Assembly: GCA_949710005.1 (NCBI GenBank)
Contig: OX453278.1
Location: forward strand, 2,664,501-2,728,500
Source of the DNA: Ricordea florida
Lineage: Eukaryota; Cnidaria; Anthozoa; Corallimorpharia; Ricordeidae
Direction of reading: 5' to 3'
Length of the DNA stretch: 64,000 nucleotides
This document shows positions 3,291-37,247 of this stretch, one piece after another; positions within the stretch are counted from its first letter, which is position 1, and each line of letters starts with the position of its first letter. A program made the position numbers and the translations under genes. The notes under the pieces are model-generated. The model did not search any database. It was not told the origin of the DNA and was given only the letters and a program-made list of their open reading frames with translations.

Positions 3291-3360
3291 ATAGGTACTT
3301 CATATATGATTCCTATAGTGTACCGATATATAGATTCATATACTGCACTCTATAGTACTT

Positions 3361-5300: not shown

Positions 5301-5311
5301 CTGACTTGGCA

Positions 5312-8430: not shown

Positions 8431-8748
8431 CTCTACTTCCTGTATTTACGACTGGAGAAAGAATAAATAGAAGCAAAGGGCTCTCGAGATGGCTGTAATT
8501 TTTGAACAGCATGCATAACTAGTAGAAACCAAAGATACATAACGGTTTTGCATGAGCATATAAGCGATACTGAGGTCTTGCGTCTAACTAAGACTGTTAG
8601 ATTGCTCTTCCACAAATTCTCCAGGCTCAAAATGTCACCAACTTCATTATTTCACAACCCTTTTCTTTTGACATTCAAATCTTTACAGCAGCATGTAGCT
8701 GGATGTGATTGTTCCAATGAACCTAGTCTAATGGCCTTGCTCCCACGA

Positions 8749-8880
8749 GTCTGTTATAGCTCAATGTTAGAGCATCTAAACTTGTAATCGGAAGGTCGTA
8801 GGTTTGACTTCTATTGGGAGAACTCAAATTTGTTTTTTCCGAGCGGTTTGCTTGTGACAGTTCTGAAAAGTACATTTTTC
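8749..8880 (+). mobile_element. tRNA-derived SINE downstream of BRICHOS gene A
   Basis: A tRNA-like head (TAGCTCAATGTTAGAGCAT, then a B-box-like GTAGGTTTGACT) is followed by a tail containing TTGTGACAGTTCTGAAAAGTA. A related copy lies at 41635-41757 on the minus strand. Both copies sit roughly 160-320 bp past the stop codon of a BRICHOS gene and run antisense to it, so the SINE was probably already present when the gene was duplicated. It is not a functional tRNA: the arms do not pair and the head runs on into the tail. Confidence 0.65.
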
Positions 8881-8978
8881 CCCTTATTAAAGCTATCTTA
8901 ACTGCGGGAAGTAGTGCGTGAGTCTGTCCATACTTGTTATCAATCCTGTCACAGTCAATGATACACGGTTAACAATCC

Positions 8979-8984
8979 TTTATT
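8979..8984 (-). terminator. Poly(A) signal of BRICHOS gene A
   Basis: TTTATT on the plus strand is AATAAA on the gene strand, about 60 bp after the stop codon. The paralogue has AATAAA at 41481-41486, about 45 bp after its stop, in matching context. Confidence 0.7.
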
Positions 8985-9044
8985 GACACCATAAGCGGTT
9001 TGTGAAGTACAAGAAACTGTTATATTTGATTTATCGCAACATAG

Positions 9045-12000: not shown

Positions 12001-15000
12001 AATCCACCGCGTATTCCAGAATTCTACACCCTCACAAAGATTCATAAGGCTAACCCAGTCGGTAGACCTATCATATCAGGCTGCGAAGGCCCTACTGAAC
12101 CTGTATCATCATTTGTAGATAGTCTGCTTCAGCCTATAGCTAAGCTACAAAATTCGTATCTAAAAGATACGACAGACTTTATCAACTTCCTAGAGAATAC
12201 GGAAGTCCCAGAAAACACCATCCTTGTGTCTATGGATGTGACCAGCCTGTACACAAACCTACAGCAGGAGGAAGGCATTACTACCGTGGGCACCGCATAC
12301 GAGCGTTTCCATAAAAACAAGCCTCCTATTCCAACCCATTTCCTAAGAGATGCTCAGACTTATACTAAAGGAGAATTCTTTCCAGTTTAATGGAAAAAAA
12401 TTATCTCCAGATACACGGAACCGCTATGGGAAATAAAATGACAGTCTCTTTTGCCAACCTATTTATGGCAGAGGTTGAGACAGAAATCCTGAATAAGAGC
12501 ACAGAAAAGCCACCGGTGTGGAAAAGAGACATCGATGATGTGTTCTCTTTATGGAACATAAGAATTGAGAATATAAATGGGTTCATTGAACAGGCTAACA
12601 GACATCATCTAACCATTAAATTCACGGCTGAAATATCAGACAAAGAAACCATTTTCTTGGATACTTGCGTTTACAAAAGCGACAGATGTAGACAAAGATC
12701 TTTCCTTGACGTGCGAACTCACTACAAGCCGACAGAAACATTTCAGTACACACATTTCGCTTCCTGCCACCCACCAGGGGTCAGTAAAGGCTTCATCAAA
12801 GGCGAAGCACTCAGTCTGCTTCAAACTAACTCTTCAAAAAATACTTTTGAAGAGAATATTGTAGCATTTAGATCACGCCTTTACGCGAGAGGGTATCCAG
12901 ATATTCTGGTAAATAAAGTCCTCTCAGAAGTGAAATTCGAAGAGAGAAAGTCGGCTCTTCAACAAAATAAAAGAACGCGCTATAGAATTCTTCCTTTTGT
13001 CACACAATACCACCCAGCGGTGCCTAATTTAAAGAAAATCTTATTATTTTGAGCAAATGGCATCTAATACAGGATCGACCTTTGCTGAGTGAGATATACA
13101 AAGAGCCTCCCATCATATCGTACAAAAGAGGAAAATCGCTCAAGGGCATACTCGTTAGATCCAAACTCTTAAGGTAAAGAAACTACACTTGCGAACAGCG
13201 GGAGTCGTGTAGGCCTGTCACAACTTTTTTTAAACACTGCTACAGCTTGGAAATGATCATCGAAAGCTCGGGTCCGTGTCGTAAGCTCTATGACCGCTAA
13301 CCAACAACCGCTGACTGGCTAGAATTTTTCTTTTCGCTGTGAGCTTTTTCTTTTCGCTGTGAGCTTTTTCTTTTCGCCGTGAGCTTTTCCTTTTGGCCGT
13401 AAGCTTTTCTTTTTTTGCCGTGAGCTTTTTCTTTTCGCCGTGAGCTTTTTCTTTTCGCCGTGACAGTTGTGGGCCACCGTAGTGGCACAATTATAGAAAA
13501 TAATTGGACGATTTACGTCATCTTACTGGCAACACTGAGTTACGGAGGGAATAAGGGGTTGTGCGGGTTTCATAGCTTGAAATTATATTTTTATAGTTTC
13601 AATAAAAACTGAGTAGTTTTAAGATTGGAAACATTTCCGATTTTGAAGACTATGCAGAGTACCCTGGAACCTTTTAAAATAAGCTATGGGGGCACTTTAA
13701 AGATATTTGCTTTCGGCAGTTTTTATATACCGGATGAGTATTATTAAGGGCAAAGGTGCTCTTTTCTACTTCGGCATTTAACATTAAGTCTTTTTGTTAC
13801 CTTTTTGTTACTTACTAACCGCTAATGACTTTATGAATAATGGCTCCTGCTTTATGGAAAGTATAGTTTAATGGCATGCCACTGAAAGTTTTCAGCAGCA
13901 TTCAAATACATTAAACTTTATGACTCCTTAATTAACGCTACAGTAAAGTAGGACAAGTAGTAAGTAAATTAATTATAATCACGGAAACGTTTTACCGTCA
14001 TCTGGTATTATCATCCAATTGTTGTAGTCTTCTGAACGTTCTGCGTATAAGATGCGCAACCCTCGACAAAAGTGCTGAATTTTCGGTGAATTCCATGGCT
14101 CGTCGTTCGGTGCCTCGCCCCTGATGATAAGAGTGGAACTCGTAATGTCTGCTTCAGTTCCCTGCTGGTCCTGATGAAACGAAGAGAATCAGAGAATACC
14201 GTTCACACTCACTTTTCACCCACTCAATCTACCTGTCAAGAACATTATTCTGAAGAACTTCAAATTACTTCAGAATGACAACGAAACAGGTAGAATCTTC
14301 TCATGCACTACCCGACCACCACTCATCTCATTTTAACGTAACAAAAACGTAAGCGACTTTTTAGTTAGAAGTACACTAAAATCAAACGAATCACTGGCAC
14401 CTTTAACTGCACACGCAAAAGATGCAAAACGTGCCCTTTCATCCACAACACAGACAAAGTAACAGGACCTAAGCGATCGATTAAAATCACCGACCGCTTC
14501 ACATGCACTTCCGCCAATGTTATTTATTGCATAAAATGCGCCTTATGCAAGAAAATATACACCGGCGAGACCGGAAGAAGATTAGGTGACCGTCTCTGCG
14601 AACATCTGCGCGACGTCGAACGAAATGACAAATTGAGATGCATCTAAACCTGTAGCACGACACTTAAATTTACCTAACCACTCCACCCAAAACATGGCGG
14701 TATGAGGCCTTACCATGCATTAGGGCAACACGGAAAGCCGTAAAAACTTAGAACAGAAGTTTATCTTCCAACTCGGTTCTCTTAATCCCTACGGTATCAA
14801 CGAACGTTTCTCATTCATTTAATCATTCATCCAGTTTATTCACTTCCATTCACACACTTCTATGGTTCCACCAATAGCATGGCTCCAAATTTCTCTACGT
14901 AACCAGGAACATTGGTAATGTGCTCCTGACGTAACCCACAATCCTCTCTTTCGCTCCGACGAAGGGCTAACGCTCGAAACGTCAGCACCTCCCTTTTGCC

Positions 15001-18000
15001 TTATGGTGGTATAATTTACTTAATCAATTCGTTTAATTTACCCAATTTCTTGTGATCCAAAAAATGTGGTTTGTGAATTCAAAGTGCCGTTTCGTAGGGT
15101 TTTATTCGATTGATGTAAAACCAAAACTAAGTTAATTATTACCCAGGCCAATCACAATAGCGAATAGACAAAGTTCAAGGAAACCCAGCGACTATTTTTG
15201 GTAAAAATCTGTTTGGAAGCAAAGTGAGCTAGAATTTTAGAATATTGAACACACAGGCCCTCGGAATTTCGAACCGTGTATCTGAATCTGAGATTTTCAG
15301 TCCCTAAAACATCACCAAGAAGATTCGCAACAAGGGAAAAGTAGTCATTTACGTTTTCGGAAAGGATATTTTTGCAATTTTTGGCACTTAAAAAGGTCAC
15401 CTTGCAATTTCGGATGAGCAAATGGTTTGTTGGGAAGTTTTTAGAAGGTGCTGTCCAGCTAGCAATTCTCAGAAATGAAGATATCATTCACTAAAATTTT
15501 GGAACACTTCAATTTTTTGCTAAGATATCCGAACAGATCAAATTCTTCGAAGTGATAAAAAACATCTATTTAGACAGTCTTTAAACATTACAAGGAGCCT
15601 TGAAATGTCATTCAGAGGCTTTTGGCTCAATCTGCTCATTGGGTGCCCCAAAAAGTTCAGTGAACCAATATGAACGCAAATCAAGAGAAAATGAGGAAAG
15701 AGAACATAACCCCGTCTGATTATCTCGTTCCATGGCTGCGCGGTTTCCCCATGGCGCATTGAAATTACAACCACGTGATAAGAAGGACATTAGCCATTGG
15801 TCAGTTAAAATAGTTTCCGGATCTGAAAATAGATTCTGTCCCCTTGTCATAGTAAGGGACGGACCATTAGAAAAGTGATGGGGGGGGGGGGGTGGGGAAT
15901 TTTCAGCTTGCACGAATTTTTTTTTTCAGGTGAACCTCTCTGCACGAATTTTTTTTACTACGTGTGAAAAAGTCACAATTGGACCTTCCTTCTGCATGAA
16001 TTTTTTTTTTTACCTTCTTCTTTGCATGAATTTTTTTTTTTGGCATTTTGCCTTGCATGAATTTTTTTTGTTTCCCCCCCCCCCCCCATCACTTTTCTAA
16101 TGGTCCGTCCCTAAGAGAACCCAATATGGAAGATGCGTTCTCTTGCCTCATTTTCTCTTGCGCAAATTAAATACATGGTGGACAGGCAAATTAAAGCCAA
16201 CTATTTGCTTTTTCACTACGTACGACAACGGTTCATACATTTTGCATGGTCAAGTCCTGGGCGAGTTTCGTTGGGTTCGTCTGTTGGCTCCTCAAAGCAG
16301 TCACATAGCAAGCACCTTTCAGTGGGAAGCGATAAACCGTCACATTCTGTGAAGAAAAGTTTTTATGTCGGAACAATGATCAACTTAACTACTTAACAAA
16401 GGTCAGTTTCTCTAATCCCTAAAGAGTGATTTTACTTCCGGTAAAAACATCCACTTGCGTAAAGCTAAGACAGTTATTGATACTTACTGTGATGTTTCCA
16501 GTTAAAGACATGATTATATACGTAGATAATTCACAATTAGAGCAATCTTCAATTCCTAAACTGTTATTTTGTTTACTTCAAACTGTTTGGATTGTTGGAC
16601 GGAACAATTATGCTTGAATTGCACTCTTGCGAAATGCAGACATTTTAATCTTGCTTTAATTTTTTAAGACTGTTAATTTAAGACCAGTCACGTAATTCGT
16701 AATGAGTCCCAGGTAAGCTATATGTGATTGCGTCAGAATAAAAACCTTCACTTGGTTCTGCTAGCTTACTGTGTGTTGTGTCTTGGTATTGGCGGGGCCG
16801 CTTCGGCGCGTTTTTCAACATGGATCTCTCTTCGAAAGACATATATCTTTTATAACCTTCACCCCTTAACTGCATGCACGGCCGTCATAATCGAAGTCAT
16901 GCATGTGACGTGACCTATTTACTTTAAACTTTCTAGTCTCACATTTTCGGTCAAGCAGCTTGATTTGTGATCTACTGAGTAACGCATGGGGAAGCAGTCA
17001 ATCGAAGGTTTGCTAGACGTAGTAAATAGCCGCATGTGATGAAAATGTGGTTTCAATAAATTCTGTACTTACCAGGCCAAACAAATGCTTTACTGATGAC
17101 TCGTCCACTTGGTTGTGTTGAGGAACATGAAATGTTTCGATCCCGTCTTCAGTGTCTATTTCCAATTCTTCAGTGAACGTGGTCCCAGATTCTGTGACTT
17201 TGATTTTAAATCGAAGCACACCAAGAGAGCTATCAGGCTGTAAGACAAGGAATTCAATACGCCAATTTAGCCAAGGATTGGAACATTTTTCCATTAGTCT
17301 GACTCATTGATACAACCTTCAATGGCACCGTCGACAGCATTTCGCAATTGCCAAAAGTTTGCATATAATTTTCAATCGGACACATTCGCGAGTAGTAAAA
17401 GACCTTTAAAAGATCGCAGCTTTTGACGCGCACGGAAACAAAATTGTGATTAATTCAGTCTTCGGTTCTAATTATTTGCATTGAATCGTCGTCATCATGT
17501 CTAAAACTGCGGATTCATCTCTGCCGAGCTTTTTTGTCCTTGTACATAAATCATTCCTAACGAGGGATGTATATGCTGTTGCAAACAAAGTTTGTAAATT
17601 TACCTTGTGAGGTTCACTTCCAGGCAAAGACTTAGAAGTCACAGCAACGACCATCACGCAAACAAGAATAAAGAGTCTTCCCAAAAAAGCCTGCATGTTA
17701 TCAAACAAAAAAATGAAGAAGGGGTTATACTTCAGAGGATTTAAATCATCTCAGTTAGATAACTTTGATCTGTTTGATAAAGAGAGATTTAGCTCACTAC
17801 ACAACTATGGCCACACCAACAGAAAACATTCAGTGTGGCCAACCTTTTTAAGCTACGTAACAATATTACATAATACAAGGCTTTACTTTACGGTGTGGAT
17901 CGACTTGAAATGTGCAGTGTGACCAGTACTGCACTATGGTACTGTTTTACTATACAGTGTGGTCAGTATAACCTCTTCATCTGTGGATCAAATAATGTAG

Positions 18001-18692
18001 TGTGGTTTCATCTGTAAAAAATGCTGTTTGCCTTACTATAAAAAAGTGGCGCTTATGTGTACCATCTCCGTCAGAATATATGAGCGTTGCATTATAGCTT
18101 TCTTTTGACAGCTCCAGCTCATTTTTCTTATCAACAATAAAAGCTCCACGGGACAATAAAACAAGTGTAGACGCTTATGATTTAACACATTTGCAATGAA
18201 AAAGTCATGCAACCTATTTGTGTTTCAAATATTCGGTCTTAAAGCTATTTTCACGCGACTGTTAACTGCACACAATGGCCGGTTAGCTCAAACTCGCCCC
18301 ACGTAAGAGAATCCGGAAGCCACGAATTTTTCGCTTTTGTAATCCCAGAATTCTGGGCTTTAGAATCCGGAATCCAGCTAACGATTGGAATCCTAAATCA
18401 TAAACTCTTAAAGAAATGTAATACATTTAATCCCGTATTTTGTAAATCGAAAAAGAAAACAAACTTGTTGTGCTTTCTAACAACGTTTTTCAACATAGCA
18501 CAATTCGAACACGAAAACGAAATGCGAAGAAAAGCATTACAACAGAAAAAAGATGGAATCCAGCCCTTTTGGGGAATCCGGAATCCATAATGGGAATCCA
18601 GAATCCAAACTGTCATGGATTCCCTTACATGGGGCGATCAAACATTTCTAGCTATATAGTGCTCTACCAATTATCTGAAAATCCCTTACCAT
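9045..18692 (-). CDS. BRICHOS precursor A: secreted, furin-site, nine-cysteine C-terminal peptide
   Basis: Six exons on the minus strand: 18692-18690 (only the ATG), 17690-17604, 17237-17073, 16346-16239, 14170-13996 and 9298-9045. All have GT-AG borders and consistent phase, giving 263 residues. Residues 2-22 are a signal peptide (AFLGRLFILVCVMVVAVTS). Residues about 31-180 are a BRICHOS domain: the conserved cysteines lie in GACYVTAL (Cys98) and HFCRGL (Cys156), and the NDEPWNSPKIQHFCRGL stretch recalls the chondromodulin/tenomodulin BRICHOS end. The furin-type site TRKRR-Q follows (cut after Arg191), leaving a 72-residue peptide with nine Cys including a CC pair. BRICHOS domains act as intramolecular chaperones in the secretory pathway (family knowledge). 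The target of the mature peptide is unknown; signalling, matrix or defence roles are all possible. The last intron is 4.7 kb, against 0.87 kb in gene B, because it took in transposons. Start and exons match gene B codon for codon in length. Confidence 0.88.
9866..10627. mobile_element. Non-autonomous TIR transposon in intron 5 of BRICHOS gene A
   Basis: The ends are imperfect inverted repeats: GTGTTTTCACTAGGCCGATT at the left and, read inward from the right, GTGTTTTCACTAGGACAATC, each followed by a TTAGCTAG-like motif. A short open frame starts at 10028 (MAGEEALLLG, then basic residues) but stops within about 40 codons, and no transposase is recognised. I found no clear target duplication. 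Confidence 0.6.
10775..13493. mobile_element. Foldback-flanked composite element carrying a Penelope-like reverse transcriptase
   Basis: Left arm 10775-11037 and right arm 13311-13493 are inverted copies: a common outer edge (GGTGGCCCACAACTGTCACG), a tandem array of a 20-bp unit (AAAGCTCACGGCGAAAAGAA; about ten copies left, seven right) and a common inner edge (GTCAGCGGTTG-TGGTTAGCGG). The reverse transcriptase at 11461-13172 lies between them. A smaller inverted pair, GGTAACTACTTGGTGTAGGC at 11069-11088 and its complement at 11246-11265, is nested inside. Inverted terminal arms around Penelope-like elements are known, but the tandem structure of the arms is unusual. All of it sits in intron 5 of BRICHOS gene A. 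Confidence 0.75.
11461..13172 (+). pseudogene. Broken Penelope-like reverse transcriptase
   Basis: Ordered family blocks are readable: KADKGSTTVVMNK (near 11790), FYTLTKIHKANPVGRPIISG (12022-12081), SMDVTSLYTNLQQEEG (near 12231), IHGTAMGNKMTVSFANLFMAEVE (12411-12479), RDIDDVFSLW (near 12526), and ASCHPPGVSKGFIKGEAL (near 12760). Stops at about 11740, 11980 and 12388 interrupt it, and a frameshift in the A-run at 12391-12398 separates the halves. The catalytic box reads DIDD where the family usually has YIDD. No GIY-YIG endonuclease follows before the right arm. It is inactive. The first part stays in one frame across two stops, which suggests fairly recent decay. Confidence 0.88.
13500..13990. 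other. Intron 5 remainder, no recognisable feature
   Basis: AT-rich intronic DNA between the foldback arm and exon 5 of BRICHOS gene A. No gene, repeat or regulatory element recognised. Confidence 0.5.
14215..14647 (+). pseudogene. Penelope-like element 3' fragment with GIY-YIG endonuclease domain
   Basis: An open stretch from 14381 to the stop at 14645-14647 reads FNCTRKRCKTCPFIHNT, then IYCIKCALCKKIYTGETGRR and LCEHLRDVERND. This is the cysteine-rich linker and GIY-YIG core of Penelope-like elements, with the I-Y and Y-T-G positions and the following GRRLxDRL-EH helix visible. The piece just upstream (14222-14340, in another frame) matches the region before the linker, so a frameshift separates them. 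It lies on the plus strand inside intron 4 of minus-strand BRICHOS gene A. It may be the separated 3' half of the element at 11461-13172 or another copy. Further downstream, 14953-14987 (CTCCGACGAAGGGCTAACGC) resembles the tail of the same class of element. Confidence 0.8.
15120..15850. other. Intron 4 of BRICHOS gene A, no recognisable gene
   Basis: Minus-strand open frames at 15152-15487 and 15608-15913 show no family resemblance, and they lie inside the intron between exons 5 and 4. I see nothing further. Confidence 0.45.
15853..16114. mobile_element. PIF/Harbinger-like MITE with TAA target duplication
   Basis: The ends are inverted (GGGACGGACCATTAGAAAAG at the left, CTTTTCTAATGGTCCGTCCC at the right) with TAA on both sides. 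The inner ends are G-runs and C-runs, and the centre repeats a TGCATGAATTTTTTTT motif four or five times. A three-base TAA/TTA duplication is typical of the Harbinger group. It lies 125 bp from exon 4 of BRICHOS gene A. Confidence 0.75.
18295..18636. mobile_element. TIR element in intron 1 of BRICHOS gene A
   Basis: The ends CGCCCCACGTAAGAGAATCC and GGATTCCCTTACATGGGGCG are inverted repeats with few mismatches. The interior is rich in GGAATCC and its complement. No coding potential. It is absent from intron 1 of gene B, so it inserted after the duplication. Confidence 0.7.
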
Positions 18693-18805
18693 GAGTGTCG
18701 CTTTGCAGTCTCGAGGTTTGACGAACTGAAAAACTGAGCTGTTAGGTGAAACTGTTTATCTCTTTTCTCTGTAAAGAACATAAGTAGGCACGGCCGAACT
18801 GCGCC

Positions 18806-18812
18806 TTATATA
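18806..18812 (-). promoter_or_regulatory. TATA box of BRICHOS gene A
   Basis: TATATAA-type box on the minus strand inside GGTATATAAGGCGCAGTT, about 120 bp upstream of the ATG. BRICHOS gene B has the same motif, flanks and distance (37837-37843). The similarity continues about 200-250 bp further upstream, including a shared GATC-GTTGGCACTGAAACAA stretch, so the promoter was duplicated with the gene. Confidence 0.8.
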
Positions 18813-18952
18813 CCCGCGTCTACCTGGAATGCTTAAACCAGGTCAGCTTCCGTCGTGACTCTGTTTTTGGATTCACGTTTCAGTTCTAGGGAAGTATGTA
18901 TTCCTTCAAACGACAAGGAAGTAGTGAGGTCGGATTTCCTTTGTTTTTTTTT

Positions 18953-18979
18953 TTGTTGTTGTTGTTGTTGTTGTTGTTT
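18953..18979. repeat. GTT microsatellite upstream of BRICHOS gene A
   Basis: About nine GTT units, within the upstream region shared with gene B, where the same place has only AACAAAAAGC. The repeat expanded in copy A only. Confidence 0.85.
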
Positions 18980-19085
18980 CAGTGCCAACTGATCTATTTT
19001 CGCTACAGTCTGCCCATTTGTTTGTTTAAGGCAAACCAAATTTATATTTACCAACTCTCCTCTTAAGGAAGATTTCATGTTGCGA

Positions 19086-19347
19086 TGAGTGCTTCACTCA
19101 CAATAGAGAACAGAAGATAGAATCCCACTGTATTACTACAAACAGTATTACCGTACAGTACTGTTAAGTAGCTTTCAAAAGAATGGTCACACCGCATGGT
19201 TTGATCCACAGATGAAAAAGTTAGAAACACACTACATAGTAAAACAAACAGTACCAAGGTACAGTGCTGTTCAGTAGCTTTCCAAAGAATGGCCACTGTG
19301 CATGGTTTGGTCAAAAGATCAGGATGAAACAGTTAGAAGCACACAGT
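19086..19347. repeat. Tandem repeat of about 90-125 bp, copy 1 (upstream of BRICHOS gene A)
   Basis: Two to three copies of a unit with the landmarks CAGTACTGTTCAGTAGCTTT, CCAAAGAATGGTCACAC, GCATGGTTTGATCCACAGAT and AGTTAGAA-CACACTG. Related arrays lie in the last intron of the convertase-lectin gene (31180-31450) and intron 1 of BRICHOS gene B (38020-38330). Weaker copies lie in intron 1 of gene A (17800-18000). Function unknown. Confidence 0.75.
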
Positions 19348-19349
19348 AA

Positions 19350-20520
19350 TGGTAAAGTAAAAAAACATTGAGCAATCGGTTGCTCTTTCTTTCGGTTTTA
19401 TCCACAGATTCATTGAGTTCTAAATCTGGTCATTGCTTTACGGGTCCTTTAAATCATTCTCTTGGGGACAATCCAATCGAGAAGAACTCTGCAACCCGAG
19501 CTCGAAAAGATTGTTCCCAAAAAACAATCTTATCTTTGAAATGTTCAGCGAAAGAACTTTACCCAAACTTAATACAAGAAACGTTACCGAAAACTTCAGA
19601 ATGTCTTGCAGGGTGGCCATGTTTTTGGTACTTTAGGAAGTCCTAAAAGTTAAAAAAGTCCTAATCTTTCAGTCTGAATAAAACTTTTGTTCATCTTTGG
19701 GGTCATTAAGCTCTCGCGGTTTAGCACTGGAGGCAAAGTATTTACAAAAATGACCACCAGGTTCTGAGAAGTGTAAGAAAGCTCCCCAACGTTCTAATTT
19801 GTTTTGTTGCCGGTGGAAGTGTTGAGAAGAAGAAAGCAATCTCTGAATATACCGGTTAGAAACCTTAAGTAATGCATGTAACTCAGTTTAAAGAAACGGT
19901 TTCGCCATTAAATGGATAAAATGTTCACCAAGTGAATTATTCAGTGGCTCAGTGCTTGTTACTGTTTGCACAACTTGGCTGGCACACGTCAGGTTCGGCC
20001 GCTTCCGGAAATGTAATTTAAGACATCTAAGCAACCTACAAGGAAATTATATAATGATCTTATATGTCGTTCGTGAGTTAATTTACGATGTGGGTGACGA
20101 GGAAAGCCTACTCGCAAGTATTTTTTTATCATTTACAAACTTCTTTTTACATCTGGCCAAGCTAATTGAGCAAGTGTGTCGATTGATGTCCGAAACTTGT
20201 TGACTTCAATCGACAACTGACTGACTTTGATTAAACTGAGAAAATCAGTAAACTTTGGACTTTGGTTTCAGCTCCAAAGGAAGTCTGTTCAAGTATAATC
20301 TGAGAAGAAATCATGTCCCTGTTGCTGAAACGGAACTTGAAACTGATGCGGGTTCATGATTCGTATGACACGAGAGAGGCTCATTTTAAAATTTTTCATA
20401 ATTATGAAGTTTCAGATCTCAGCTGATTTCAATATAACATAACTAAAGGAAGAAGTTTTTAAAAGTTCGAAAACCTCTGTTCGCCGTTCGAGTTGCTTGC
20501 TCAGAGCATCTTCTTTTTTT
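19350..20520. other. Intergenic stretch upstream of the convertase-lectin gene
   Basis: Short open frames only (for example 19368-19646 and 19952-20203), with no family resemblance. The last 200 bp presumably hold the promoter and 5' untranslated region of the plus-strand gene starting at 20522. I see no clear TATA box. Confidence 0.45.
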
Positions 20521-20521: not shown

Positions 20522-23500
20522 ATGCCAATTCTTAAAGCTTTTTGCCCCGTGGCGGGCACAATGGTTTTCAGATACCGCACAGTTTTCAACTTTATGTTAC
20601 TGTGCATGTTTCTAGCTCGTTATACGATTTTAAGCGTTACTGCTTCCTCTGCGATCAGTTATTTGAATAGCTGGGCCGTTCAAGTTCAAGGTGGATCACA
20701 CGTGGCTGAGACGCTAGCGCAGAAACACGGATTTTTATTCAAAGGGAAGGTACTGTGTTTTATGATTATCATTTTTAACTCGAGCCTTTACAAAACAACT
20801 TTTGAATGCTACTGCTCTTTAGTTTTTTCTTATAATTGTTGAAAATCATGATTTTATTTCAGAATCTCAACCGTACTGTTCGTGCTGCAAATGAAAACAA
20901 GAACTCAGAAATATGGGGTCGTGATGTGACACTTATCTAACTATTTTTGTGTCTTGTTTTAGATCTTTGATGATTTTTACCTGTTTGAACACAAGAGGGT
21001 AGCCAAGCGGTCCGCAGAGCGTTCCGAAACCAGTGGCGCTCTTTCACTTGAAAATGAGATGCAGGTTTGTGGATAAATGACAGTACTCTATAATCTAAAA
21101 ACATAAATGGGAACGTCCTTTGTGTTAGAGCATTTTCTGATGTTAGTGTATTCTTAAAAAAAATGATTTTCACTGAAGGACTGTACTTTGTGATCTACAG
21201 TGTTAACAAATCAAACGTTCATTCATTCTTTGCTGAAACGTTTCTCTCAATTTGCGTCAACAGGTCAGTTGGCTGATGCAGCAACGTGAAAAGAAAAGAG
21301 AACTGTATTCTACCACAACGTCGGCAACAGGATTTGTAAGAAAGAATATTGTTTTAAGGGCTAGACAGCTCTATCAAGAATTTCGATTCTCAAGGCAATT
21401 TCAAACTTTTCTTTAAGATTCAGTACCCTTGAAAGAATTCTCTTCATCCCCTCGATTGTTTGCATCAGTTTCTGTATGATTTCCTCAAGGCAGACATCTT
21501 TTTGTTAAGGCAAGATGTTGAGCAAACACGGGTGTTGGGCCAATCAGATCGATTTCATTTAATAATATCATTTTCTGTAATGATTTTTCAACAGGACAGG
21601 AGGATTATGCTCGACATGAACATAGAGTCAGCCTGGAAACGAGGTTATAATGGTCGTAATGTCAAGATATCAGTTGTAGACGATGGACTTTTCTATAATC
21701 ACCCGAGCTTACGGCCTAACTACGTATGTATCCTAAATACGCACGATTTATTTCACATGTTTATCTATTGCGATGGAGTCGGGGAAATCTGACCTACCTT
21801 TTATGAAATATTTTATTATGAAAACACAATTTTCAACCTTCCTAATATAAAAACATCGAGGATATATTTACTAGTCTAACAAAAGAGTAAAGTACAGATT
21901 AGAAAATGAAATAGGAAGTTGAAATGCGAATCATTGGAAAAAAAAAACGAATAAAAGCACTCTTATTGAGACATTGCCTTACATATTTTCCAATTACTTT
22001 ATTTTGGCGACAGCTACGTAATCGATTCATTACTTTGAGCCCCTTTGCAGTATTGTTGCATGCCAAATTGATCAAATGTTTAGCTGTTAATGGTTTGTTT
22101 CATTTTACTATAAACAGAATCGAGACAACAGTTTTGACGTGGTTTCGGATGACTATGATCCCAGTCCTCGAAATTGGCAAAACGGGTAGGTACCCTTCAT
22201 TTTAGCACGAGTATGATGAACAAAGTCAGTGAAACATGTGATCTTATCTTCCTTTTCAAAAAAACCTTTTCACGAGAATTTTTTATGAAAACCTTCTCTC
22301 ACTCTACAATTGATTTAACTCTTTTTGAAAGCCATGGGACAAAATCAGCTGGAGTCATAGCTGGGGTGAAAGAGCGGTACTCCTGCAGGCGCGGTGTTGC
22401 CAGTGATGCACGGATATCAGGTACTGATATTATGTGCAAGTCTAAGAGAGGATGGGTACATGAGGGAAAAACTGAGAAAGTGAGGGAAAATAAGGAAAAG
22501 GGAGGAGAAGAAAAGAAAGACAAAAATGAAGAAAGGAGAAAATTCCCCTAAAAACTAAGTGTAAAAAACAATTTCAGATTCAGTTTCACAATGGACCTTA
22601 CGACACGTAGCGTGTCGTTAGAAACTGTGACGAGACAAGAGTATCAAAATGTTTGATAAAGCTTCTTCAGTAAACATGATTCAGGATGAGTATGTTAAAA
22701 TGTTTGAATATTTGTTCTTAAACGGTTCATCGAACTATTTGGCTTTCTTTGAGCTATGCTCTGTTAGGAATGTTTGCTTCATCGAGCAGATAACACTTCG
22801 GAATAGTTCAGTAAATATCACTTTATCGTCACGGTGGTCTAATTATGGAGATTTTATTAAGAGAAAATTGTCGTTAAACTTCTTAGGCATTCGCCTTTTT
22901 GGCAACCGTATGACCACGGACCAGCAGGAAGCCAGAGCTCTAAGCTACAACCACGAGAGCACTGACATATATTCATGTAGTTGGGGACCTTCAGATACCG
23001 GCTGGAATGTAGACGGCCCCGGTCCATTAACAAAGCAAGCAATCAAGAAAGGAGCTACCAAGGTGCGTCGATATTTAACAATGAGACTCAATTAATCTAT
23101 GCTGTATTCCAGATTAAACTGCTTGAAAACCAAACCTTTCATTGCGGCACATACCTATAAAGCTTATATGTGGCATTACTCGCCCGAAGATTGGACTCAA
23201 GGCCAGGCAGGATAATGCCGGGCTCCAGTGTTTGGTTTACAGATAGAAGGCTGGGAGTAAAAACGTTAGAAGACGCTATCACGTTGGTTTCTTCATTTGG
23301 CAGGGTCGTCATGGTTTAGGATCCATATACATGTTTGCAGCAGGAAATGGAGGAATAAACTATGATTCCTGTGCGTACAACGGTTTTGCAAACAGCATTT
23401 ATACCGTCACAATCAATGGAGCCAATGAAGATGGGTCAGTTCCTAGGTACGCTGAGCCCTGCTCAGCTACCTTAGCTTCCGCATACAGTCTGGACAACAC

Positions 23501-26500
23501 CAAAGGAAGGGAAAACAAAGAGTTTGTGAGTATCTTGGTTTGACTCATTTAAACGTTTAGCTCCTATGTCAAGGTCGTGCTTCAATATTTTTAACAGAAA
23601 ACGACCGACACTTGGAATATCTGCAGCTCAAAGTTTGGTGGAACATCGTTAGCGAACTCAGTGGCATCTGGTATCGTCGCAATTGCCCTAGACACCGCTC
23701 ATGAGAACAGGTAGGCCAGCAAGGTTAACTTAATTACCGTTTTAGGGTAAAAATTGTTTCCCGATTCTCTTCTTTCGTTTTATTTGAGATAACTATTTTC
23801 AGATTGAATTTAACCTGGCGGGACATTCAGCATTTGATTGTACGGACCTCTAGATCTCAGTATTTGTGTTCTGAGGACTGGAAAACGAATGGTGCTGGAC
23901 TAAATGGTGAGATTGATAAAAAGAAACACATAGACAGTTAGGGAGACTGGTAGAGAATTGAAGGCCAAGGAAACACAAACACGCAGCACAGTGTTCACTG
24001 GTAAATAGAGAGAAATCGCCAGAAACAGACATACACAAAGCTAAACCTAATTCATGCATTGTTTTTATTCCAATATACAAGCAGACTGTACTGACAGCAG
24101 CCAGGCCATAAGCTATAGAGAAAAATTAATTATGTACGCAGATAGACACGTTAAGAGACCGTTTGTGAACAGAGACAAATAGGCTTAGACGTGGACGAAA
24201 CTGAAACCAGAGCAGGGAGGACAGAAAAACAGGGAACCGACTGCCCAGACAAATTTAAAAATAGAGAGAGATAGCCAAAAAATTTGAAATACGGGCAACT
24301 TACATGGGCAAGTAGACAGAAAAACTGGAAAACAAGTGCACAGACAAATAAATAGAAAGACACAAAGACAGAACAAACAAACACTTCAACTTCGGGAAAA
24401 ATACAGAAACTCTCAAACGAACAAAGCGACAGACGGACAAAAAGTCATCAGACAGAGAGCATGCCAGTCGTTATAACATTCCGGCAAAAAATCCAGGGCT
24501 AGATTCTAAGCATCTAACTGACTGAAGTTCTTCCCATGACCCGTCTCTCTAATACATATGTTCAGTCTCACAAGTCTCATCCGAAAACATTCTTTCTTGA
24601 GTGATATTTTTTTAGCTACAATAGACATAGAGTACAGCGGTCCGTTCTCATGGTGAATTATTTTACAGTGAGCAGTTACTTTGGGTTTGGACTTTTGGAT
24701 GCAGATGCCCTGGCAAGAATGGCGGCCAGATGGATAAGTGTACCGCAGCAAAACAGCTGCCAACTGTCTGTTAATCTCACAAACCAGATGAAGTAAGTAA
24801 TTGAAGTAACAAAGGAGTCAACCATAAATTGTACAAAAATCTAGCCTTTTAATTTTGTATTGATAATAATATTAGTATTTACCGACCACGTCAGAAACGT
24901 CGTCATTTTGAGTCATCTGATTGGCTCACTATCTCGGGATATTCAACATTATTATATCTACAACCCCTCGATATGAGCGTACGCGCGCTCTGATTGGTTC
25001 CCTACTCACAGTCTATTAGCTCCTATCCCATTAGTACGGAAAACGGCCATCGGGGAGGAAAAATTTCATAAATCATACTGCCAGGCATGGGAGAAATTCA
25101 AGTCTTGCTTGAAAAGAATATACCAAAAATACTACCGAAGCAAAGAAATATAAATATAGGATGAAATTAATCGACGGTAAGTGAGAAAAATTATATAGCG
25201 AAATTGACACGATTTTAACTGTTTATTACGAACTGAAGTAAATGAACTCTTGCAAAGTGCCGCCATTTTGAAACATCCATTGTACAGGAGCTCGTAATCT
25301 GAATATTTTATTTGCTTCAGCCTACTTTTTCCACTTTTAATTCTCAGACTGGTTTGCTAACTCGAAGAAACATGATTTGTCAAGTACATTAAAGGGATGT
25401 TTAAGAACGAGCTGGCCAGACTCGTGTTTGAAACTCTTTTACACATCGGCTCGACGACAAAATGTCGGCTCGACAACAAAATGGCTCTGCCTACAAAACA
25501 ACAGCAAAGTCGATTCCTGTAGTGCAAACTAGTTCAAATTTCTCACAATCGAGCGTTTAGGAATATAAGTGATAAAACAATTATCCCACTCAATCTCGTC
25601 GCAGCTCCTGTAAGATTCGATTGAGTGGGACAATTGATAACTATTCAACTCCTTGGAGATGAAACAGGAGGTAAATAGTGCCCGGGAGTTCTGAGAAATC
25701 CTCTTGCCCTGAGTTTTGGTCAAAGAAAAAGATGGACCGCATCAATTTTGTACGCAATTTTGTACACGCTTTTACGGGCAAAATATATTATTATCCACAG
25801 GTTTATCCCAGCTACAGTTCCCCGGATAATTCAACTAAATGTCACTGAGACAAACTGTCCAGGGGTAAATTTCTTGGAACACGTACAACTGCGTGTCAGT
25901 CTCGAGTTTACACGGCGCGGCTATCTGGAGATTGACCTAGTTTCTCCGTCGAACACAATTGTGAAGATCCTGCCGTCCCGTCAAAACGACGTTCTAGCCT
26001 CTAATCTGAGTAACTGGGAGCTACTAAGCATGCAGTTTTGGGGAGAAACTCCAAAAGGAACATGGTACATCAACATGACAAACAAATATCCAGAAGCAGG
26101 GTATAACAAAGGTATGGACGATACATTCTCATATTATTTAATTAACAATTATTCGCCGAATTCGAAGGCGAAGTGATTATCGGTGAATATTCGCCGATAA
26201 TCTGAGTCTGAGTCTGAGGCGAATAACTGTTTTAGCATAAATACACAGGTCATTATTTCAAACAAAGAAAAGAAAAAGCATTGTACAACACGAAAAAAAT
26301 TTATTTTATCAAAAGCGCGCGAACGACTGGCAGCCATTTTGCTCGTCGAGGTGATTATCGGCTGATAATCCGAGATAGCGAACCAATCGGAGCGCGTAAT
26401 TTTGTATAATCACCTGAGTATTTATACTAATAATGCATAAGCGAAAACTGAAAGAAGATCAGGCACCGGCGTGACGTGTTGGATATGTGATAAGTGACGT

Positions 26501-29500
26501 CATTAATTTCTCCAGTTAATGTGTTTCATCACATATCAAACAACTGGAATCTTTTCGAAGATATTCCGCTGCGCGTCGTATTTCAGCTCCGGACTCGGTG
26601 TTTGATCCATGATGAAACACTTTGTCTCGTGTTTGATGTATTGCAGCCACAACGCAATCTAGCACCGGACAATCAAAAAATCAAAAATCAAAAAATCAAA
26701 AATGGAAAAGCGGCCCCTATTAAGTCCTAAATACATTACTGGTATAAAGTCCCACGCGGCACTTGAGGCCGTCCCGAAACGCTATTAAAACTTGTTCTCC
26801 TGCTATCAAGCGTCCCCTAAGACGTTCAGTCATTTTATTCTCTTACACATACCTTGTCTCTGGGTAATAGCCTTTCATTTCTTTTTCTTCCCGCAACGAT
26901 TCGTTTGTGTCTGGTACACCAGGCTGCACCATCCCAACCATCTTTATTTCGTGTTCCTCAGGTTTTCCATTGGGGCTAAGTACTTTAATAAAGTACTTTT
27001 CATTTTCATTGTTACTTTTTATTTTACCAGAAATCTATAAGACTTGAAACGAGTAACGCACGTTCACAACTTGTCCAGATTCAATATTTCTCATGACCAT
27101 ATTTAGAAACTGCTTCTTCCAGTCTTTGAGCTTGTTTGGCCCTGATTGGTTTACTTGGTTTCACCTTCTTTCCAAATATAGTAGTTGGTAGATTGAATGT
27201 GGACAAGGTGTGGTTCAAGATATTCAATGACCAGTTACACATTCAAGTCTTAATGAGTTTCTGATTTTACCTAACTAGGTGTCATTGACCAGTTAACGCT
27301 TACTTTGTATGGAACGAAAAAAAATCCATTGACGAAACAAAACAAAGAGAACTTACAATCTGTTTTGCGGTCAAGAGAAAAGCGACCCTTGAGAAGATGT
27401 GTAAAAGATAGCAACAAACATGGTAAGAGATCTCTTATTTGTTGATGTTTATATTACTTCAGTGGGGAACGAGACTTTTGGTCAATACTGTTTGAAAGTC
27501 GTGCTTTAATTTGTGATAAGTTGGCTTTCATTGCCTCAACTGTACAAAATATTGGGAAACATGTATTTTTCTGTACAGTCTCAAGCAAACGCATATAAAT
27601 ACAATCCGAGTCCTCTCAATAGGAGTCGAACGTGTGACCGGTTTTAAACAAGTTACATTGTAATGTTAATTCGTGTCAGATTCCTCTAATCTTTTCTTAG
27701 TTGAAGAACTTTTGTCCCGGGAAATTAATTGGTTGCTTGAAATATGTTCCACAGCTTTAATAAAAGAACTTTAGTTTTCCTGTATCGTGGTGCATATTGC
27801 AAAAGGCGTGCATAGTGCTGAAACAAACGAACAACAAGTAACGTTCTAGGGATTTCTCTCAGACGAAGTGAAGAAAAGAGCCTTGCACAAGCTGCTGACG
27901 TCAAACTGATGCAGGCTGATGATGCGTCAACTCTGTGTCATCGGATACTGATGGCAACAAGTTTGACGGCGTGATCACAGGGTGCAAATTATGCAACAAA
28001 TATTCTAAATGCCATAAAGTTATTTTTCAGTTATTTTTCATGCTTTTAGGCGAAAGTACACAAAAGGAAATTCCCGAATGCCAGTCTGCAGCCAGCTACA
28101 CCAAACGTGAACATCGTCGGATGACTAGACCTTTTCTGAAAGACTACTTTTGGCCTCATGATGACTGCAAGGGTTGTGTGAAACTCTGCACAAGGGATTC
28201 ACGTTGTTTGTCTGCGAGCTGTTTGCCTGCCTGGGGATGGAAGGCTGGGAAGTGCCAGCTGAGTGCACACAACGGGAAAATAGCTTCCAATAAATTGAAG
28301 AGGGACTGGTATTGGGAATACTTTGAGAAGAACTGTTTTGGTATGAATTTCATTTCCATTTTTTTTCTTTCTCAGCGCTATTTTCTTTATAATTTATCCG
28401 TAAAATTATTTCAGTTTTAAAAGTACAACGCATATAATAAAAGAGCTAGTAAAGATTTGCGTTTTAGAAATCTTGTATTTTAATAAAAGGATTGTCAATA
28501 AATGATAGCTATGTTCGACAACAACCCATTCGAAAACTTTTTTAATAAGCGAAAGAGTGTCACAGTTATGCGAGCAAGTTACAAGCAGCTGTAACGATAA
28601 GATCTGAAAAAAACTCAGGTTTGAACGGGATCAACTGTTTTTAAGTTCTCTGACGATCTTACACTCATTAAAAATCATTCTTCCGCAGTTCACAGATATG
28701 AAATTTTCATATATTCACGTCCATTTGCAAACGTCGATGTGTTTTTTTCTTATCTCGTTTTTCGCTTTTTATTACTTGTTTCGTATGTAAGTACCAGCTC
28801 TTTTTTAAGACAACCTCTTTGTTCTTTAGCACCAACGACAATTTTGCCGACAAGTGAAGCCATACCAGTGAAGCCGGACAGCCACAATACTGAAATCAAA
28901 CCTAACAGGACATCAGGTAATCATAATTATCTTTTATAGCCCTGTGCAAGTAACCAAGAAAGTCTGACTTGACGAGGCATGCCTTTGCGGTCTGTTTTAA
29001 TATGGGCTTTCTTATCGATTGCTCCATTAGGGAACAGGGTTGGCGCAGTGGTGAGAGCGCTCGTTTTCCACCAGTGTGGCCTGGGTTTGATTCCCGTTCC
29101 CGGCGTCATACGTGGGCTGAGTTTGTTGTTTCTGTACTCTGCTCCGAGAGGGTTTTCTCCCGATACTCTGGGTTTCTCCTCTCCACCAAAACACCAACAT
29201 TTGATTTGATTTGATTTGAGATACAGTTGACTTGCACTCAAACAAAGTTCATTATTATTATTGGCTTCTGTTTAGTGCGTGACGAAAAAAGTAAATTAAA
29301 CGGGACAACTGAGAAGCCGATTCAGAAAAAAACATTTTTCATTTCTTAGGAACATAAGTTTAATTTTTGGTTTCTCTGTTATTTTCAACTTACATTTCAA
29401 ATCTTGATCATTTTACCCGAATCTTTCCAAAGCATCAAGAACCGTTCCACCAACAACTCAAAGGCTGCCTGTATCGCCAAAGATCGTTCAACCAGGTACG

Positions 29501-31629
29501 TTGAAAAAATTGAACTACAACATATACATTAGAGAACAAACTGACTGTCTATGACAACGTCAAAATGTAGTAAAGGTATGTTATAGCCATACATATGCGC
29601 ACTAAGGCAACAATGGTATAAGGGATAAAACCCTGTTGCTACCAAAAAAAAATTAAAAATTTAGCTCAAAAGCCAGCAGCCATGGACAGCTATATGACAG
29701 TCTCCTCACTTGCATCACATTACATGCCGGCCGGCAACCCCAGTTTCAATGCCGGTGCATAATAGGAATTGGAAGAGTGTTTTGAATTTAGTGTTAGCAA
29801 TTAGTTTTACCTGAAGACACTGTGAGAAATTGTTTCAATTTATAACCTAAAATCATTTAAGTAATCAAAAATTCTTATTCACGATAATTTGCTCGCCTTT
29901 TAGTTTAAAACTTAATTTACTTTTTGTGGTATTTAACGATTGAGTTCAAAGTATGCTTTTCGAGTTAAATAAACTTACATTCTTCATCAAAAACTCTTCA
30001 TTTAATTGATTACAAAAGCCTACTATGGGAATAGTTAACACTGAAGCCAAAGTAGATCCGTTCCATTTCTGAGGGAAAAAAATAACTGGGAAATGTTGGA
30101 TAGCCAACCAAGACTGACCATAGTAAAGTATTTGCGGCTAAGAACTCTTATAACAGATACTGAAGCACTCGACTTATTTCCCACTGGCCCACTCTTACTC
30201 TCGCTCGGCTATTTACATGAAGGAATGAAATTTTTTACTCAGAGCGTTCAATCTTTTATCCCCGGGAGGGGGGGGACTCCCATATGGAATGGACGGGGAT
30301 GCTCGTCGTCTCGCTTAAGGGTGTAAATTTCGGATTTTGGTCTCGCTTAGGGTGTTCTAGGCAAAATGTCATTATTTTTAGCTGTCAAGGTCTCGTTAAG
30401 GGTTGCACGCGAAGAAATAAAAAAACAGAAAGAATTTTGATTTTATGAGTCTGCATAAGCTTCGGTCACGCCCAGATTGATCTCTTTTAGGAGTTTAATT
30501 CAAACTTTCCATATGGGAGTCCCCACCCCCCCCCCTCCCCGGGCTTTTATCAGCCTTCTACTAGCTCAATGTTACAGGCTTGGTTGTTGTCCTATAAAGA
30601 TGTTGTTTATTTGTTTGTTTGTTGTTATGCAGTATTTTGATGGTTTTTCGTATCTTTCATCAGTTCTTTTTTTTTAATTTCAAGAATACACGTGCCACTC
30701 GGAGCCAGTCTGGTTCAAGTTTGGAACATCTTGCTACAAGATAAACCATAGAACAACAACCCGACAACAGGCACAGCGCATCTGTGCAAATGAACGAGGA
30801 CACTTGGTGATGATAACATCCCTGGAAGAAAACAAGTTCCTTACCGAGAAAATAGAGAGAACAAGCCAGCACTGGATCGGACTCAAAAGAAACTCATGGG
30901 GAACCTTTGTCTGGGACAGTACACACGGTGAACATATCGATTTTGAGTACTGGAGCCCTTATGAACCTAACAACTCCGGAGGAACAGAAGACTGCGCCCA
31001 AATCTCAGGAGGTCAAGGATTGTGGAACGACGTATCATGTCATGTTCGGCATTCCTTCATATGTGAAAGGGTGCGTAATAAATTCAGAAAATACAAGTCA
31101 ACACCAAACTTCATGAAAATTGTTTAGGAAATGTGTAGAAACAAACGATACCACGGTAAAAGTATCACAGCTTTCCGAAAAAACTGTTTCATACTGTCTA
31201 GTAAGATCAACAGATGATATGCAGAACCACACTTTATTGTAAGACAAACACTATCACAAAAATAGTACTGTTCAGTAGCTTTCCAAAGAATATTCACTCA
31301 TTTTCTCTTGTCACAGTGCATGGTTTGATTCACAGATGAAAACGTTAGACTGAACCACACTGTAGAGTAAAACAATCAGTACCAAAGTACAGTACTGTTC
31401 AGTAGCTTCCCAAAAATGGTCACACTGCATGGTTTGATCAAGAACTGAATGAAATATTTAACCGCATCATAGTAAAACGGAATAAATCAACGCGTCGCGC
31501 TGAAAGGCTTAACTAATTTTTGTTTGTTTTATGTTTGTTTAGGACGCAGAACGCGTTACAATGGCGAGTCAATCATCAACCGCGGATACTCCACTTGTTA
31601 TCGTGAAAAAGGCACATTTTAACGATTAG
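20522..31629 (+). CDS. Furin/kexin-type proprotein convertase with PAN/apple-like and C-type lectin domains
   Basis: Eighteen exons: 20522-20749, 20963-21064, 21264-21335, 21595-21723, 22118-22185, 22332-22420, 22887-23062, 23304-23525, 23598-23710, 23803-23906, 24669-24792, 25801-26111, 27279-27422, 28050-28340, 28830-28916, 29433-29495, 30685-31070 and 31543-31629. Every junction is GT-AG and in phase, giving 931 residues. Order: signal peptide (hydrophobic 24-44; Met14 is an alternative start); prodomain ending REKKR-E (Arg122) with an internal VAKR site; S8B catalytic domain with Asp163 (VVDDG), His201 (GHGT), Asn303 (AAGNGG) and Ser379 (GGTS); P domain to about 600; a Cys-rich PAN/apple-like block (about 628-724); a Pro/Thr linker; a long-form C-type lectin domain (775-903) with EPN (868-870) and WND (888-890), the mannose-type calcium site; and a short tail. 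No membrane anchor is seen, so the product is probably secreted or Golgi-soluble. It should cut after basic motifs. The last exon is the least certain: reading through the intron would add 18 residues and stop. Confidence 0.88.
25555..25647. repeat. Hairpin MITE in convertase intron 11
   Basis: AACAATTATCCCACTCAATC and GATTGAGTGGGACAATTGAT form the two arms around a short loop. Non-coding. Confidence 0.65.
26137..26430. mobile_element. Foldback MITE in convertase intron 12 (family shared with GEMIN5)
   Basis: A palindromic end (TTCGCCGAATTCGAAGGCGA, then GATTATCGGTGAATATTCGC) is followed by a body with CACGAAAAAAATTTATTTTA and CGAACGACTGGCAGCCATTT, and ends near CGAACCAATCGGAGCGCG. The same element lies in the opposite orientation at 55235-55500 in GEMIN5 intron 8. 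Confidence 0.75.
29033..29216 (+). mobile_element. tRNA-derived SINE in convertase intron 15
   Basis: The tRNA-like head has an A box (TTGGCGCAGTGGTGAGAGCG) and a B box (GGGTTTGATTCCCG). A body follows and ends in TTTGATTTGATTTGA units, the usual SINE structure. Open frames across it are artefacts. Confidence 0.85.
30261..30543. mobile_element. hAT-type MITE with an exact 8-bp target duplication
   Basis: The ends are inverted (CCCGGGAGGGGGGGACTCCC, and its complement at the right) and CTTTTATC flanks both sides exactly (30253-30260 and 30544-30551). An 8-bp duplication is the hAT signature. It lies 140 bp before the C-type lectin exon, in convertase intron 16. Confidence 0.88.
31180..31450. 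repeat. Tandem repeat copy 2 (last intron of the convertase-lectin gene)
   Basis: Two to three copies of the unit with CAGTACTGTTCAGTAGCTTT and ACTGCATGGTTTGATC, as at 19086-19347 and 38020-38330. It lies between the lectin exon and the short last exon. Confidence 0.75.
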
Positions 31630-31730: not shown

Positions 31731-31736
31731 AATAAA
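31731..31736 (+). terminator. Poly(A) signal of the convertase-lectin gene
   Basis: AATAAA about 100 bp after the stop codon at 31627-31629, followed by a second ACAATAAATT at about 31748. This supports the placement of the last exon. Confidence 0.65.
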
Positions 31737-35377: not shown

Positions 35378-35682
35378 GGTAGAAAAATAGAAACAGCCTG
35401 TTTAGCTAGTAGTGTATCTTTAGCATTTATTTCAATGGTCATGTACCTCTCTTCAATTCTAAGTTCTTTTTTTCGGTTTTATCGACCAGAAGACTAATCG
35501 TGAACCTAAACCGCTCAAGTAAACGTGTTCACAAAACTAATATAACGATATTAAGAGGATTATCCGTGGCTATTGTTTGCTCCCTCCATGGCAAGTAGTT
35601 CTGCGTTCTAAACAAACATAAAACAAACGAAAATTAGATAAGGTGTTATCGGGACGCGATGGTTCATTCCATCTTACTATAG

Positions 35683-35880
35683 TGGATCGGGCTCAAAAGA
35701 AATTCTAACAGAATCTTTATCTGGGACAGTAAACATGAAGACGACGTTGATTTTAAATACTGGAGCTTTGGTGAGCCGAACAACTCAAATGGAAAAGAAA
35801 ACTGCGCCGAAATCTCAGGAGGCAGTGGAATGTGGAATGACGTGCCATGTGACGCTAGGCGTTCCTCCATATGTGAAAGT
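35683..35880 (+). pseudogene. Truncated second C-type lectin exon
   Basis: This matches the second half of the lectin exon at 30685-31070, starting at WIGLKRNSNRIFIWDS and ending RRSSICES before a preserved GTACGT donor. The frame is open for 66 codons and keeps EPN and WND. The first half of the domain, with three of its six cysteines, is missing, and the donor now runs straight into the polymerase fragment at 35889. It is probably a pseudogene from a duplication of the convertase-lectin gene. Use as an alternative exon is possible but has no support here. Confidence 0.75.
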
Positions 35881-35888
35881 GTACGTAA

Positions 35889-37247
35889 TAAACCAATAGA
35901 AACACTCGTTTGTGAATCATCCTTGAATGCTCGTTTTAGTATATTCGTGGCTAGAATACCATCTTCTAAAGACTTACATCCAACTAAGACTTAAATTCCA
36001 TTCCTAAATAATTGGCTATTAATTGTTTTATCTCCAAGATTAATGATGAAGGTGTTTTGATTCTTAAATTTGCCGCTATTATATGGATTTATTCCGATAA
36101 TTTGTTCATCTAGTTCAATATCTACATTAACTGAACTTTGAATCCGAGATGTAATCGTCATCATAATTAATCTCAGGGGCTCTATAGTTTCCAACAGCAT
36201 AGGTATCAGTTGATATCTTTTCTGAGTATTCTTTTGTCATCAAACGGGGATAAGGCGACTTTCCTGATGTCTTCGGAATAGATATCATGCTTGTGGCTAT
36301 TAATGACGTTCATTTTCCTTATTTGTACTTCCTTGTTAAATAAAACAGCTTTATAATCCTCACGAGATATGGATTTTTTAATCACGGATTTTTTGATGCC
36401 TTTACACTTTTTGTGTTCCGTTTCATTCAGTATCCATTAAATAGGAATATAGCTTAGCTCTTAATGTAACTGATAATTTCTTTGATTTGCTCGCCTCCTG
36501 CCTCATCCTTAAATTTGCCTATGACTTCAAGTTCTTATTAACCCCTGTTTTAATTTCTGAGGCGTGATCTTTTGGAAAATAACTCGTATCGAACATGGAT
36601 TCTACATCTTGATTAATATCGAGGTAAAAATTCTTTGTTTTAATAAGATAACATAATGAATCCGTATTGGTGAAAAGCAGTTTCGCTTTATTTCCGTACG
36701 TATTTTGGTTTAATATGATTATAGTGGAATTGATACATTAAGGTTTACTCAAGTCTAAAATACACGCGCTTAGATAAACAGGCTTATCAAATGTTCATTC
36801 TGGTTTTCCCATATGTATTGCTGCTAAATTCTCATCAAATATAGTATAATGTTGGTAATTAGGTTGAATGATTAATTTCTTAGCGCTGTCTAGATCTTTG
36901 ACTAATTTGATATCTTTTCTATTCCTGATATTTTCCATCGTTTTACCAAACACGGAATTATTCATGAGTTTGAAGAAGTCCTTTTCAAAGTCATTCGTGG
37001 CTTTGGCTCTTCGGTTCGTATTTAAGTCAATATATTGCTTCATCCAAGTCGATTCCTCAAACGTAATGAATTTTAGTTGAAATTAAACCAAGATTAAGAT
37101 ATTGTTTTAGGTTTTCTCGATGTAATACATATTCAGTTTTGCTTTGGAACGTTGGAATGAGTTTTTTCTATATCTATTTTAAGATGTTCAGCGGCTAATG
37201 GATAGCCATTATGCAGATCATGCAAGTCTCTAGGATAACTTAAATTA
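35889..37247 (-). pseudogene. DNA polymerase B fragment (Polinton or virus-like), copy 1
   Basis: This stretch is nearly identical to 43563-44898 and encodes the same broken pieces on the minus strand: a KLMNNSVFGKTMENIRNR block of family B polymerases at 36795-37043 and a C-terminal piece at 35991-36200. Small indels and stops separate them. The match to copy 2 begins just after the lectin donor and ends sharply at about 37247, so this is a segment duplicated from copy 2 or from a third copy. It is not functional. Confidence 0.75.

Follow-up and report, generated by a model that had tools for sequence, protein, structure and literature searches.

A predicted gene joining a divergent proprotein convertase to a PAN-like block and a C-type lectin domain in the corallimorpharian Ricordea florida

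We examined a 64,000-nucleotide stretch of the Ricordea florida genome (contig OX453278.1, hereafter the window) and in it a predicted gene on the forward strand, at 20522-31629, in which an S8B proprotein convertase is followed by a PAN-like block and a mannose-type C-type lectin domain (CTLD). We consider it fairly likely that this is a single gene whose product is a secreted and probably active convertase, Ca2+-dependent and belonging to a divergent clade, with a tail that would hold the protease at glycans. Gene anatomy and sister genes in the same genome make it likely that protease and lectin are carried by one transcript. The exons, their phases, the domains, the catalytic residues and the changes in the S1 pocket were read directly in the DNA.

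Gene structure and protein domains

Rebuilt independently from the DNA, the gene model consists of 18 forward-strand exons with consistent phases, GT-AG boundaries at 17 of 17 introns and a single frame of 931 residues ending in a stop at 31629, in agreement with the eighteen splice-consistent exons of the original prediction; AATAAA occurs at 31731 and 31750, both 3' of this stop. Exon 1 (20522..20749) carries the start methionine (Met1 or Met14), a signal-like hydrophobic stretch as judged by eye and the start of the prodomain, the remainder of which lies in exons 2 and 3 (20963-21064 and 21264-21335) together with REKKR (residues 118-122), the likely site of prodomain self-cleavage. The S8 catalytic domain follows in exons 4-10 (21595-21723, 22118-22185, 22332-22420, 22887-23062, 23304-23525, 23598-23710 and 23803-23906) with D163, H201, N303 and S379, and exons 11-13 (24669-24792, 25801-26111 and 27279-27422) encode its end and the P domain, exon 13 closing with a phase-1 donor. 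Exon 14 (28050..28340, phase 1-1) encodes the PAN-like block of eight cysteines, exons 15 and 16 (28830-28916 and 29433-29495, both phase 1-1) a Pro/Thr-rich stalk, and exon 17 (30685..31070) the CTLD, with EPN at 868-870, Glu at 876 and WND at 888-890. Exon 18 (31543..31629) adds the final 28 residues and the stop. The product is probably secreted, because its N terminus is signal-peptide-like and exon 18 has no membrane segment, both as judged by eye. Since exons 14, 15 and 16 are each symmetric, isoforms that skip them would stay in frame.

A profile search of the 931-residue translation, proposed as a check alongside the original prediction, placed four Pfam domains above their cut-offs: S8_pro-domain (residues 50-123, 1.7e-18), Peptidase_S8 (154-442, 3.7e-38), P_proprotein (501-588, 6.1e-17) and Lectin_C (800-903, 3.6e-22). 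The first three stand in the order expected of an S8B proprotein convertase, and the catalytic residues named in advance for a complete enzyme (the triad of Asp163, His201 and Ser379, and the oxyanion Asn303) are all in place. Among solved structures, the best match to the protease half is furin (6.7e-110 over residues 140-599), and, among the best 60 of 183 matches to the lectin half, the closest are CTLDs of the mannose-receptor family. The EPN and WND motifs are the mark of a mannose-type C-type lectin; both are present, as are the Glu between them and the Lectin_C profile, which bears out the full mannose-type lectin domain originally described.

Sister convertases and the S1 pocket

A PF00082 search of the window's own genome (538 Mb) returned at least 18 exon-level matches, which we grouped into 11 convertase genes: the window gene, C5, C15a, C15b, C9 and two each on C7, C1 and C2. 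The window gene, C5 and C15a formed a clade apart from the eight other convertases and furin with an ultrafast bootstrap (UFBoot) of 100, and did so in each tree built, one of 355 columns without C9 (which covers only 220 columns) and two with C9, on 210 selected columns and on the full alignment. The trees leave the branching order inside this clade and the placement of C9 unresolved. In gapped rows made from tblastn pieces, the window protein is 50% identical to C5, 51% to C15a, 48% to C2a and 44% to furin. C9, which we take to be PC7, shares Ala309 and Thr316 with the window protein; a PC7-like identity for the clade was considered and rejected, as the clade still stood apart at 100 with C9 included.

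The two sister genes read at the same point into other tails. In C5 (C5:30181000-30210999, at 30.18 Mb) the exon that ends the P domain closes in phase 1 and continues in frame into the first TSP1 exon; the DNA there holds six TSP1-coding stretches in a row, and two tested open reading frames (ORFs) match TSP_1 in Pfam at 5e-13 and 2.9e-12. A diverged copy of the C5 P-end exon sits inside this array. In C15a (C15:4068000-4087999, at 4.07 Mb) a P-end exon of 81 nt and a Pro/Thr linker exon of 66 nt read in frame into a hydrophobic segment, after which comes a short YVSL-bearing tail. Frame and phase suggest that the TSP1 and YVSL tails belong to C5 and C15a. The three clade members would then seem to bear three different tails, of which the lectin tail is one, and three tails on one divergent convertase clade are more interesting than a single fusion.

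We compared active-site residues in furin numbering, with the rows of the other genes assembled, gaps included, from tblastn pieces. A furin structure study describes inhibitor contacts to Asp306 and Asp258 (S1) and to Glu236, Asp264 and Tyr308 (S4), places Thr309 and Ser316 at the centre of the relay between S1 and sodium, and, on the basis of alignments, describes every proprotein convertase as conserving the residues of the S1 conformational transition (PMC8453481). The window protein keeps Asp153, His194, Asn295 and Ser368 as well as Asp154, Glu236, Asp258, Asp264, Asp301 and Glu331. Of the acidic pair in the furin S1 pocket, Asp258 is kept and Asp306 has become Asn, so that the pair is incomplete. 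At residue 306 the window gene and C15a carry Asn and C5 carries Ser, against Asp in furin and in all eight other convertases of the genome. Residue 372 is Ser, Ala and Ala (here and below in the order window gene, C5, C15a), against Pro in all five other genes that cover the site (three do not). Residue 305 is Tyr, Phe and Tyr, against Cys in seven of the eight others (Phe in C9), and residue 316 is Thr, Ala and Thr, against Ser in seven of eight (Thr in C9). At residue 309, Ala, Val and Ala stand against Thr in six of eight, with Ile in C15b and Ala in C9. Among these genes the change at 306 is unique to the clade, and the changes at 309 and 316 are not.

In the window protein, residue 257 is Ser, residue 230 is Arg and Tyr308 is replaced by Phe, and as aligned to furin a 3-residue deletion beside the catalytic His takes out Asp191. 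C5 has Lys at 264, its alignment having no coverage of the His194 exon, and C15a has HGN instead of HGT after the His and KSS instead of GTS at the Ser. Because all three clade members lack the Asp306 that is kept in the eight other convertases, strict furin-type specificity appears doubtful for this clade. Its departure from S1 residues called conserved in all convertases suggests that a basic P1 specificity is probably kept in weaker or broader form, and the shared loss of Asp306 makes the question of specificity directly testable. The original description of a furin-type enzyme missed two points: the window protein departs from a standard furin (Asn for Asp306, Phe for Tyr308, Ala for Thr309, Ser for Pro372 and, as aligned, Asp191 deleted), and its lectin tail is one of three in a small clade.

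Alternatives to a single active fusion

The join between protease and lectin can be followed exon by exon. Exon 17 begins within a codon, and the frame ahead of it contains no Met as far back as the first stop; an upstream exon that ends in phase 1 is therefore required. The phase-1 end of exon 13 followed by the symmetric exons 14, 15 and 16 is a pattern of shuffled modules, and the stalk exons join the PAN-like and lectin exons in frame. The fusion is also supported by C5 and C15a, since their P-end exons read in frame into other tails at a phase-1 junction. Support for the fusion put forward in the original prediction thus comes from exon phases and from two sister genes that share the junction phase and read into other tails, all of it evidence from gene anatomy.

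The observations that weigh against the reading we prefer concern the join, the rarity of the architecture, the PAN-like label and the activity of the protease. As to the join, protease and lectin could instead belong to two genes, which we regard as unlikely: the convertase would stop after exon 13 or after the PAN exon, and a gene of its own for a secreted lectin would begin in intron 14. We looked for signal-like first exons with a phase-1 donor by a simple ORF rule, with same-length stretches as controls (46 for intron 14, 56 for 26112-28049). Intron 14 (28341-30684) gave three hits against a mean of 0.35 in its controls: two come from a single ORF (28698-28782) with nested starts, whose phase-1 donor GTATGT could splice to exon 16 or 17, and the third is an ORF from 28979 with the weaker donors GTTTGA and GTTTGT. 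Either ORF might act as an alternative first exon of the lectin. Read on in its own frame, exon 13 also meets a stop at 27443, and an AATAAA follows at 27759. However, such ORFs are not rare, with at least one in 22% of the 46 control stretches, and the ORF at 28698-28782 has by eye no small residues for signal cleavage and, if joined to exon 15, would leave an intron of only 47 nt. The AATAAA at 27759 is weak evidence because ten occur between 26111 and 31629. A separate lectin gene also fits poorly with stalk exons that connect the PAN-like block to the lectin in frame, and with a P-end exon that can be joined in frame to further exons in both sister genes as in the window gene. The 1,938 bp before the PAN exon (26112-28049) gave no hit by this rule, a weak result since 80% of the 56 controls also gave none. 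A short isoform ending after exon 13, or a standalone lectin, is possible.

The other objections leave the join aside. In the DNA fetched around each of the other ten convertases, some 20-40 kb per gene, neither PAN nor CTLD was matched at E 0.01 or better, so the PAN-lectin architecture is seen once. The Cys-rich block had been described as PAN-like. Its exon has eight cysteines, and PAN_1 reaches 23.0 bits, above the cut-off of 21.4, only when the 112-residue piece is scanned alone, whereas in the full protein the match (666-723) scores 16.6 bits and falls under it. None of four weak matches to solved chains is a PAN domain, and a single-sequence structure prediction of the exon was uninformative (predicted local distance difference test score, pLDDT, 43) and was not used. 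We consider "PAN-like" a fair label for this block. Finally, with Asn for Asp306, Ser for Pro372 and the deletion next to His201, the activity of the protease could be weak or altered. Taken further, these changes would fit one fused gene whose product serves as a glycan-binding scaffold or decoy, its protease part having very little activity or none: Asp306 and the Pro372 of GTSxxAP are lost, residues are deleted before the catalytic His, and Tyr308 and Thr309 are replaced by Phe and Ala. We think this quite improbable, as the four catalytic residues are all retained with Asp258, Asp301 and Glu331, the prodomain keeps its dibasic site and the entire frame is open.

For an active fused convertase, we propose that exon shuffling used the phase-1 intron directly behind the P domain to dock the PAN-like exon, the Pro/Thr stalk and the mannose-type lectin exon. 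The prodomain would be removed at REKKR and the P domain would stabilise the catalytic domain, and the tail may bind glycans or glycoproteins, either extracellularly or along the secretory pathway, thus concentrating the enzyme where selected substrates are. That protease and lectin share one transcript, and that the enzyme is active, secreted, glycan-binding and targeted in this way, is what we infer from the sequence. Convertase tails help decide where these enzymes act, and it is reasonable to suppose that the lectin positions the enzyme on glycans. Such a tail, if real, would couple proprotein processing to sugar recognition.

Neighbouring genes and known systems

The convertase gene is flanked by two BRICHOS-like genes. 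The left one runs from 17690 to 9054 on the reverse strand, head to head with the convertase, and the right one, its inverted partner, from 38463 to 41436 on the forward strand. The joined right copy matches BRICHOS at 22.5 bits (E 1.3e-4), under the cut-off of 25. A TRKRRQ(S/T)NSP site, followed by a Cys-rich C-terminal part, is conserved in both copies; this is the furin-type precursor layout of BRICHOS proteins. Inverted similarity between the two sides is patchy, at 67-76% in pieces (8583-20463 against 42495-37270), and stops some 60 bp short of the convertase start. The best BRICHOS match in the DNA fetched around the other convertases (about 20-40 kb each) had an E of 2.7. From their position and their RKRR site, the flanking precursors are plausible as the best local substrate candidates.

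A more speculative reading is that, in this clade with a rewired S1 pocket, the phase-1 intron behind the P domain is a socket into which different tails can be fitted (membrane plus YVSL, TSP1 array, PAN plus lectin), aiming related proteases at different surfaces; the lectin member would be a glycan-directed processing enzyme, with the products of its BRICHOS-like neighbours as substrates. Three tails in one clade of one genome, if true, would be a natural experiment in protease retargeting.

Pieces of the convertase tail lie further to the right. The second half of the lectin exon is partially duplicated at 35683-35892 on the forward strand, and the exon 18 region at 35586-35642 as an inverted copy. 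The lectin copy has an open frame and differs from exon 17 by a nonsynonymous divergence (dN) of 0.23 and a synonymous divergence (dS) of 0.66 over about 65 codons. It was considered as a second gene and treated as debris, being half an exon beside an inverted exon 18 piece and a repeated element. A second convertase copy may once have stood on the right side; the pieces are on opposite strands, which would need more rearrangement. Elsewhere in the window, 35889-37245 and 43563-44897 are two copies 96% alike, probably of a recent mobile element, and 3292-6800 is dense in short tandem and inverted repeats with offsets that are often multiples of 36 bp.

Placement of convertases by their tails is a known principle, with membrane tails in furin and PC7 and a Cys-rich domain in PC5 and PACE4. 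Of the original proposal of a new way to place a furin-type enzyme, the principle is therefore not new, and the module used is. Furin (PCSK3) resembles the window protein in its S8 and P domains, its catalytic residues, its standing as best solved match and 44% identity over the catalytic and P region. It differs in its tail, which is Cys-rich plus membrane in furin and PAN-like plus CTLD here, and in Asp306, Asp191 and Pro372, which the window protein does not keep. PC5A and PACE4 are secreted convertases that owe their extracellular placement to a C-terminal module, as we suggest for the window protein, but theirs is a Cys-rich domain and not a lectin. Horseshoe crab factor C is likewise a serine protease with a C-type lectin domain, but its protease is trypsin-type and has another fold. 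PLA2R, DEC-205 (lymphocyte antigen 75) and the mannose receptor, the closest solved relatives of the CTLD among the best 60 of 183 matches, are multi-CTLD receptors without a protease.

In the open-licence literature, judged by titles and the starts of abstracts, we found no fusion of a convertase with a C-type lectin, which does not imply its absence from print. One paper names convertases as neuropeptide processors (PMC7523074), and the available part of a sea anemone (actiniarian) immunome counts Lectin_C genes and does not mention convertases (PMC5094078). Another paper presents nematocyst-specific protein 6 (NSP6) as a convertase clade represented across the major cnidarian groups, and describes Hydra NSP6 with S8 pro-domain, S8 and P domains only (PMC6134521). 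By that description, NSP6 resembles the clade of the window gene in being divergent and in having the S8 pro-domain, S8 and P domains; Hydra NSP6 is described with these three domains, whereas the window protein carries a PAN-like and lectin tail beyond them.

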